A DNA stretch of 45,457 nucleotides from Microcaldota archaeon (GTDB taxonomy: Archaea; Micrarchaeota; Micrarchaeia; Anstonellales; J096). Position numbers and translations under genes: made by a program. Shown piece after piece: positions 17,309 to 19,411 of the stretch. The notes under the pieces are model-generated. The model ran no database searches and was not told the DNA's origin. It was given only the letters and a program-made list of their open reading frames with translations. The stretch is taken from contig JALWQW010000019.1 of NCBI GenBank assembly GCA_026982895.1, positions 80,500 through 125,956 on the forward strand, written 5' to 3'. Numbering within the stretch: the first letter of the stretch is position 1; the number at the start of each line of letters is the position of its first letter.

Positions 17309-18316
17309 ATGTTTAAGGTTTCATATCCTAGACCTGTAGCTTCTGATGCCGTCGTGGTTAATCATGGAAAAATAGTCCTCGTTAAGAGAAAGCACAAGCC
17401 GTTCAAAGGTGATTGGGCCTTACCAGGAGGTATGGTTGAAAGGGAATCTGTCGAGGCGGCGCTTGTTAGGGAAGTTAGAGAGGAAACAGGTCTAGATGTT
17501 GAACCAATGTTTGTTACAGGCGTTTATTCCAATTTAAGCAGAGACCCTAGAAAGACCATAAGCATAACTTATCTTTGCCGATTGAAAGGTGGCACATTGA
17601 AAAGCAGCGACGAAACGAAGCCGAGATGGTTTCCAATAAGCGAAGCCCTTGCCCTTCCAAAGGCCTTTGACCACGATATTGTCCTCAGAGAGGCGTTGGG
17701 TAAATTGGTGCATTATTTTATAGACACGATGCTGATGGAAGGGTTGAAGCGCGATGCGCCTGTCCTCCATTTGAAAAGAGCTGGCGGCGCTTTTAGACGG
17801 CTTGTCTTTATAATGCTCTCTGCCCGCACAAAAGATGAAACCACTGAAAAAGCGGTCGATGCACTTTTCTCCAAATACAAAAGTCCTGATGCCATTGCCA
17901 AAGCCTCGCTGCGGGATTTGGAAAAGATACTCTATGGCGTTGGCTTCTACAAGGTGAAAGCAAAGCATTTGAAAGCCCTCTCTAAATTCGTTGCGCAGAA
18001 GGGTATTCCAAACAGCGAATATGAGTTGAAAAAATTGCCTGGCGTTGGTCCTAAAACTGCCAGGGTTTTTTTGGCTGAGCTTGGCCATTCTGTCGTTGGA
18101 GCGGATGTTCATGTTCATAGGATAAGCAATCGTATCGGTTTGGTGAAGACGAAGAATCCAAGAGAAACTGAGAAAGCATTATCATTTTTAACACCGTGGG
18201 AGCGCCGACATGTCAATTTGGCTATGGTCGCTTATGGCCAGACGCTATGTAAGCCTATAAAGCCCCTTTGCCATGAGTGCCCTATCCGCGACTTCTGTGC
18301 TTCTTTTAAAGGTTAG
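17309..18316 (+). CDS. Fused Nudix hydrolase - endonuclease III (HhH-GPD, [4Fe-4S])
   Basis: Nudix box GGMVERESVEAALVREVREETGL (fits GX5EX7REUXEEXGU), then LPGVGPKTARV HhH with Lys, ADVHVHRI Asp and C-x6-C-x2-C-x5-C cluster. Confidence 0.93.
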   Translation: MFKVSYPRPVASDAVVVNHGKIVLVKRKHKPFKGDWALPGGMVERESVEAALVREVREETGLDVEPMFVTGVYSNLSRDPRKTISITYLCRLKGGTLKSSDETKPRWFPISEALALPKAFDHDIVLREALGKLVHYFIDTMLMEGLKRDAPVLHLKRAGGAFRRLVFIMLSARTKDETTEKAVDALFSKYKSPDAIAKASLRDLEKILYGVGFYKVKAKHLKALSKFVAQKGIPNSEYELKKLPGVGPKTARVFLAELGHSVVGADVHVHRISNRIGLVKTKNPRETEKALSFLTPWERRHVNLAMVAYGQTLCKPIKPLCHECPIRDFCASFKG

Positions 18317-18330
18317 CCTTCTTATTTTTA

Positions 18331-18397
18331 TTAGTGATGAGTTTGGAGGAACCTGAGCTTCGCACGGGGCGGTGATGAGGTGACTTGACTCTGATGT
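18331..18397 (+). ncRNA. Candidate C/D box sRNA (2'-O-methylation guide)
   Basis: C box GTGATGA 18334-18340; 12-nt spacer GTTTGGAGGAAC; D' CTGA 18353-18356; C' GTGATGA 18372-18378; 12-nt spacer GGTGACTTGACT; D CTGA 18391-18394; lies in the intergenic gap between convergent genes. Confidence 0.77.
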
Positions 18398-18409: not shown

Positions 18410-19411
18410 TTATTCTTTGAACCGAAAATCTACAACCCATCTGCTTATTGTCGCAGAGTAGCTGCCGCATGCCTTTGCATAAAGGACTTCGATTTCTTTA
18501 CCGAGCTTTTTTATAGCAGCCTTTATTTTCTTTATGGCATCGTCTTCGCCGCTCGCAAAAACATATGCATGCACCATGGCGTGGTCTTTTGCTAGATAAT
18601 AAGCAACATCGAAGAATTCAACAACATCCTTTGGCAGGGGCATGATAATCCTATCTGCCCATTTCTCCCATTTCTCATCTTTTAAGAGGTTTCTAACATC
18701 CCCCTCTATTATTTTGACATTTTCAACATTGTTTAAGAGTGTATTCTTCTCAGCATATTTGCTCGCTATATCATTCAGTTCGACGCTTATAATCTTACAT
18801 GTGGGGCATTTTTTTCCTATTAATATGCTGTATGGGCCCACTCCTGCGAAGAGTACTGCAACATTCTCCTTTGGCTTTACAAGTGAGGCTATTCTTGCTC
18901 TTTCTGTGGATAGTCTTGGGCTGAAATAAACTTTATCGACATCTAAATTAAGCAGTATTCCATTCTCCTTGTGCGTTGTTTCTGTTTTGTCGTCGCCAGC
19001 TAGCAACTCACTTTTTCTCACTCTAAATTCGCCTTCGACAGCAGTGGCTTTTTTCCTAACGCTCTTTATCTGCTTATGGCATTTTAAGAATTTCTCCGCT
19101 TCCTTCTTCAATTCACCTTCCGAAAGATTTCTCGGGTCGACGATGGCTATGTCGCCGATTACATCCACAGCGAGCTTAGTTTTACAGTCATCTTTGCTCC
19201 TTTTAAAATTCATTTCTATTAAACCAAATTCTATTTCTTTGCCTTTCAGTTCGCTAGCAGCCCTATCCAAACTTTCACCAGGCATTACCGGAAAATAAAC
19301 ATAATCGACATCTCTCTCTATATTGTATCCTGTTATTAATGCTCCACTGTCCTTCAGTATTGCGTGTGCTTCTTCTGCCCATCTTCGCTTTACTTTGATT
19401 GCCAGCACCAC
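18410..19411 (-). CDS. trm5: tRNA (guanine37-N1)-methyltransferase Trm5-like
   Basis: VDKVYFSPRLSTERARI, VAVLFAGVGPYSILIGKK, VELNDIASKYAEKNTLLNNV, RIIMPLPKDVVEFFDVAYYLAK. Confidence 0.9.
   Translation of the reverse strand: MVLAIKVKRRWAEEAHAILKDSGALITGYNIERDVDYVYFPVMPGESLDRAASELKGKEIEFGLIEMNFKRSKDDCKTKLAVDVIGDIAIVDPRNLSEGELKKEAEKFLKCHKQIKSVRKKATAVEGEFRVRKSELLAGDDKTETTHKENGILLNLDVDKVYFSPRLSTERARIASLVKPKENVAVLFAGVGPYSILIGKKCPTCKIISVELNDIASKYAEKNTLLNNVENVKIIEGDVRNLLKDEKWEKWADRIIMPLPKDVVEFFDVAYYLAKDHAMVHAYVFASGEDDAIKKIKAAIKKLGKEIEVLYAKACGSYSATISRWVVDFRFKE

Follow-up and report, generated by a model that had tools for sequence, protein, structure and literature searches.

Background

Dennis et al. 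(2015, PMC4644070) predicted that archaeal C/D box sRNAs direct methylation of 16S position 1395 (E. coli A1408) in Sulfolobus acidocaldarius and in Nanoarchaeum equitans, and the double-guide C/D sRNAs sR15 and sR17 of N. equitans have been proposed to serve as chaperones of 16S folding (PMC4644070). A site just 3' of the stop codon of an upstream gene is common for those archaeal C/D sRNAs that are processed from longer transcripts (PMC7994747). In a limited literature search we found no paper on C/D sRNAs of Micrarchaeota, nor any on a C/D sRNA directed against the anti-Shine-Dalgarno sequence.

Here we analyse a C/D box locus in a stretch of 45,457 nucleotides (the window) from the genome of a micrarchaeon (G000; 1.01 Mb in 30 contigs), and extend the analysis to the rRNAs and tRNAs of the same genome and to related genomes.

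Results

Architecture of the locus

The locus reads GTGATGA-GTTTGGAGGAAC-CTGA-GCTTCGCACGGGGCG-GTGATGA-GGTGACTTGACT-CTGA (18334-18394; 61 bases from C box to D box; Table 1). A first-pass annotation, made from the letters of the window, had placed it at 18331-18397, i.e. the core with 3 nt on either side, and its description of exact 12-nt spacers (GTGATGA-12-CTGA-15-GTGATGA-12-CTGA) is accurate. The intergenic gap, bounded by the stop of the Nudix-endonuclease III gene (18316) and by the point at which the Trm5 open reading frame ends on the minus strand (18410), measures 93 bp, and the C box begins 17 nt past the Nudix-endonuclease III stop codon. To judge by this position, the sRNA is probably processed from a Nudix-EndoIII read-through transcript. 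The ends of the mature RNA probably fall a few nt outside the core.

Table 1. Features of the sRNA locus and its flanking genes (window coordinates)
Feature	Position	Strand	Basis or remark
Nudix-endonuclease III fusion gene	17309..18316	+	Upstream of sRNA; ORF, Pfam
C/D box sRNA core, C box to D box	18334..18394	+	Motif scan, genome scan, conservation in relatives
C box GTGATGA (RUGAUGA)	18334..18340	+	Sequence
D' guide GTTTGGAGGAAC, 12 nt	18341..18352	+	Candidate target 16S 3' end CCUCCAAA, 8 bp
D' box CTGA	18353..18356	+	Sequence
D'-C' linker GCTTCGCACGGGGCG, 15 nt	18357..18371	+	5-bp hairpin fold GCUUC-GCAC-GGGGC
C' box GTGATGA	18372..18378	+	Sequence
D guide GGTGACTTGACT, 12 nt	18379..18390	+	11 contiguous bp to own 16S CGTCAAGTCACC, h44; predicted N+5 = E. 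coli A1408
D box CTGA	18391..18394	+	Sequence
Trm5/TYW2-type tRNA methyltransferase gene	18410..19411	-	Convergent; ORF, Pfam

This is the only full C/D motif in the window when both strands are scanned, and a set of 200 dinucleotide-Markov copies yielded no such motif. Genome-wide (1.01 Mb), the C-D'-C' arrangement was found five times, against none for a reversed control pattern. No Rfam family reached its gathering score over the locus, in agreement with the earlier label of an unannotated RNA.

Other C/D sRNAs of the genome

The genome has genes for fibrillarin (E 3.8e-78) and for Nop5 (E 1.5e-53), and its scan revealed four additional C/D candidates. Two of these have 10-11 contiguous Watson-Crick pairs to tRNA-Trp or 23S rRNA, while the remaining two have weaker rRNA matches. 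One candidate (L002) carries a guide with 11 bp to 23S rRNA and another (L001) one with 10 bp to pre-tRNA-Trp, which suggests a working guide system in G000. The former (L002:1501-1554; G000:C14:2558-2611), in which the first guide makes the match, lies immediately 3' of the Nop5 gene. The latter (L001:1501-1560; G000:C3:38194-38253) is a standalone sRNA whose D guide pairs with the anticodon loop and the start of the intron (N+5 = C34), and whose D' guide forms 9 bp at the junction of the intron with exon 2 (N+5 = C39). These target sites correspond to those of the Haloferax tRNA-Trp intron guide (Cm34, Um39). In G000 they are guided by this separate gene, the tRNA-Trp intron being too short to hold the boxes. 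Predictions at tRNA-Trp C32, C34 and C39 are mentioned in PMC7668247.

The D guide and position A1408

The D guide forms 11 contiguous Watson-Crick pairs with CGTCAAGTCACC in helix 44 of the organism's own 16S rRNA (11 of 12 bases; -19.2 kcal/mol), the sole mismatch adjoining the D box, and 14 of 1000 shuffled D guides equalled this score anywhere in 16S and 23S rRNA. This is the target that had been predicted for the D guide, and the adenosine predicted to be methylated, opposite N+5, corresponds to E. coli A1408, as fixed by the context CACCGCCCGTCAAG. The E. coli numbering is consistent with that in PMC4644070. According to Yang et al. (2016; cited in PMC7089733), duplexes of 8-10 bp give high activity. 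An exact genome search for CCTCCAAAC was discarded as support, its counts being little higher than those of the reversed control and its matches unassigned to genes.

The pairing is computed from the two sequences, and from it we infer the modification: the sRNA very probably directs a methyl group onto A1408 of the 16S decoding centre. As in other members of the family, the C/D and C'/D' k-turn motifs would assemble with L7Ae, Nop5 and fibrillarin, the D guide would bind positions 1405-1415 (E. coli numbering) of the 16S rRNA while this is nascent, and guide position N+5 would face the A-site nucleotide A1408, whose ribose would thereby be set for 2'-O-methylation.

Conservation and co-variation in relatives

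The box-guide-box unit TGATGA-GGTGACTTGAC-N-CTGA, searched with up to 3 mismatches, is present in 28 of 58 relatives in addition to the source genome, against no match of the reversed-pattern control. It occurs across families of the order, and the named records that carry it are mostly Candidatus Micrarchaeota. A co-change of guide and target is found in G005, where the guide reads GATGACTTGACT (G to A) and the 16S rRNA CGTCAAGTCATC (T for C). In genus g3 the guide base next to the D box is a G paired with a C in the 16S rRNA, and ten pairs are followed by a mismatch at the far end of the guide. About half of the relatives are without the guide, judged on the spacings searched, other spacings being possible; since many of these keep the same 16S target, the guide seems absent rather than altered in them.

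Among the relatives the length of the D'-C' linker ranges from 3 to 61 nt, and many of the longer linkers fold as hairpins. One relative possesses tandem C'-guide-D units, 37 nt apart, with the same A1408 guide (L018:1501-1559; G040:C17:104723-104781). Synteny was rejected as support, since g3 is the only genus in which a Trm5-type gene again lies close to the sRNA, and it is arranged differently there. Bacterial pattern matches (L089, L097, L098) were likewise rejected, as no second C/D half lies nearby.

The first-pass reading of a C/D box guide sRNA proved correct, given the boxes, the spacers, the shuffled copies, the conservation and the 16S pairing. We are highly confident that the locus is a genuine standalone archaeal C/D box sRNA with A1408 as its predicted target, a confidence that covers both statements jointly and excludes the D' part.

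The D' guide and the 3' end of the 16S rRNA

The partner that had been predicted for the D' guide, GTTCCTCCAAAC, is absent from the rRNA and the 43 tRNA genes, where the guide has no exact target; a part of it, CCTCCAAA, matches at the 16S 3' end. The proposed search of rRNA and tRNA for both targets was thus successful for the D guide, in 16S, and failed for the D' guide. Similarly, by the criterion of Dennis et al. (PMC4644070), which asks for nine consecutive Watson-Crick pairs that include N+5, mature 16S, 23S and the 43 tRNAs hold no D' target.

The best plausible match, of 8 bp, is to CCUCCAAA at the 16S 3' end, which comprises the anti-Shine-Dalgarno region and adjacent As. Here the terminal ...ATCACCTCCAAAGG pairs with the guide part TTTGGAGG, leaving the three guide bases adjacent to the D' box unpaired, and matches of 8 bp are not uncommon across rRNA. 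Two of these three box-adjacent positions also pair with the 16S tail in G001. The tail was picked as candidate from genus g1, and the D' guides of G003 and G005 are different sequences; shuffled guides reached the tail pairing in fractions of 0.002 (G000), 0.01 (G001), 0.0015 (G003) and 0.0005 (G005). The D' guides of genus g1 and of two further genera of the family, g2 and g4, fit their own 16S tails better than shuffled guides, while in g3 no tail match above shuffled guides was found (fraction 0.52). Read from these pairings, the base opposite N+5 would not be the same in every lineage (C1536, C1533, U1532), and because of this variation we give tethering or chaperoning the same likelihood as methylation. 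The D' guide would most likely contact the 16S 3' end and either methylate C1536 or, as a chaperone during late 30S assembly, only hold the tail. That the D' partner is the 16S 3' end, and the guide not an orphan, we consider to have slightly less than an even chance on the sequences compared.

Another D' motif occurs in families f5, f7 and f11 (L019, L020, L023, L036 and other loci), where the D' guides share TACGAC adjoining the D' box, complementary to 16S GUCGUA over only 6-8 bp. We take this GUCGUA to lie at about E. coli 1494-1499, on the opposite strand of the decoding site. Position C32 of tRNA-Trp was rejected as a D' target, since a fit to the loop covers guide positions 1-8 but leaves the D'-box-adjacent bases unpaired.

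Alternatively, and with a probability somewhat short of one half, function is confined to the D guide (Am1408), and its D' counterpart is an orphan or aimed at 5S, SRP RNA, RNase P RNA or an mRNA. The lack of a nine-pair target in 16S, 23S and the tRNAs agrees with this, as does the D' guide being quite different in other genera, and orphan guides are common in archaea (PMC7994747). However, the first nine D' nucleotides (GTTTGGAGG) are identical in the three genomes of the genus (G000, G001, G002), where only the last three vary, and the advantage of the g1, g2 and g4 guides over shuffled guides on the 16S tail likewise argues against a single target.

The length of the 23S rRNA gene (L007:1501-5123), 3623 nt, points to an intron of ~680 nt, which G001, judged by length, seems to lack. 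A D' guide directed at this intron, at CTTCCTCCAAGA, would modify the precursor. No other D' match to the rRNA transcripts is as long (10 contiguous pairs, 9 Watson-Crick and 1 GU, at guide positions 2-11), but 626 of 1000 shuffled D' guides reach this score and the congener G001 keeps the guide core yet seems to be without the intron (23S match of only 2906 nt), which makes such a target improbable. Finally, a chance or decayed motif without an RNA product is hardly credible in view of the shuffled copies, the conservation across families and the co-variation with the 16S target.

Double guides in Altiarchaeota-related genomes

Two sRNAs related to Altiarchaeota (L099:1459-1510 and L210:1501-1553, minus strand) combine a guide to the A1408 region with one to the 16S 3' end, the GTGGCTTGA guide standing at D' and the CAAGGAGGTGATC guide at D. 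Against the 16S 3' end typical of archaea, the latter would form a duplex of 13-14 nt; the L099 genome yielded no 16S rRNA. One nt less separates the first guide of L210 from its box, so that the predicted site would become A1409. Of 15 genomes with GGAGGTGATC-CTGA in the Altiarchaeota neighbourhood, 13 carry it outside a C/D context and were discarded.

Discussion

These observations indicate that Micrarchaeota with reduced genomes keep RNA-guided ribose methylation, with A1408 as its predicted aim. A1408 is the base of the decoding site that is contacted by aminoglycosides. Only tentatively, and as a reading that we hold to be rather unlikely, do we suggest that one double-guide sRNA links A1408 in the A-site with the anti-Shine-Dalgarno tail of the 16S rRNA, a target pair seen in Micrarchaeota and, with the guides swapped, in Altiarchaeota. 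If so, the tail or its processing site could stay masked by the RNP for as long as helix 44 is unmodified, which would represent a checkpoint of 30S maturation. A D' guide holding the 16S tail would give archaea a simple route by which decoding-site modification is coupled to 3'-end maturation of the small subunit.

Among known RNAs, the covariance models that align with the locus are sR35 (RF01123; 22.0 bits, gathering score 60) and snoPyro_CD (RF00095; 20.1 bits, gathering score 45). In the covariance search that the first-pass annotation had suggested, both match the boxes and layout of the locus end to end at scores far below gathering, and their guides are unrelated to those of the sRNA described here. 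With the A1408 sRNAs of S. acidocaldarius and N. equitans, the latter like the source organism a small-genome DPANN archaeon, it shares the RNA class, the predicted target nucleotide and the N+5 rule; it belongs to another lineage, and the likeness drawn here is one of class and target. Like sR15 and sR17, it would place the two guides of one RNA on two sequence-distant 16S sites. However, in sR15 and sR17 the bridge joins one strand of helices 28 and 30 to the other, whereas the one proposed here would run from helix 44 to the 16S 3' end, with one of its two duplexes weak. The A1408-guide RNA is therefore of a well-known kind and new here in a Micrarchaeota genome, and mildly novel is the possible double guide from the decoding site to the 16S tail.
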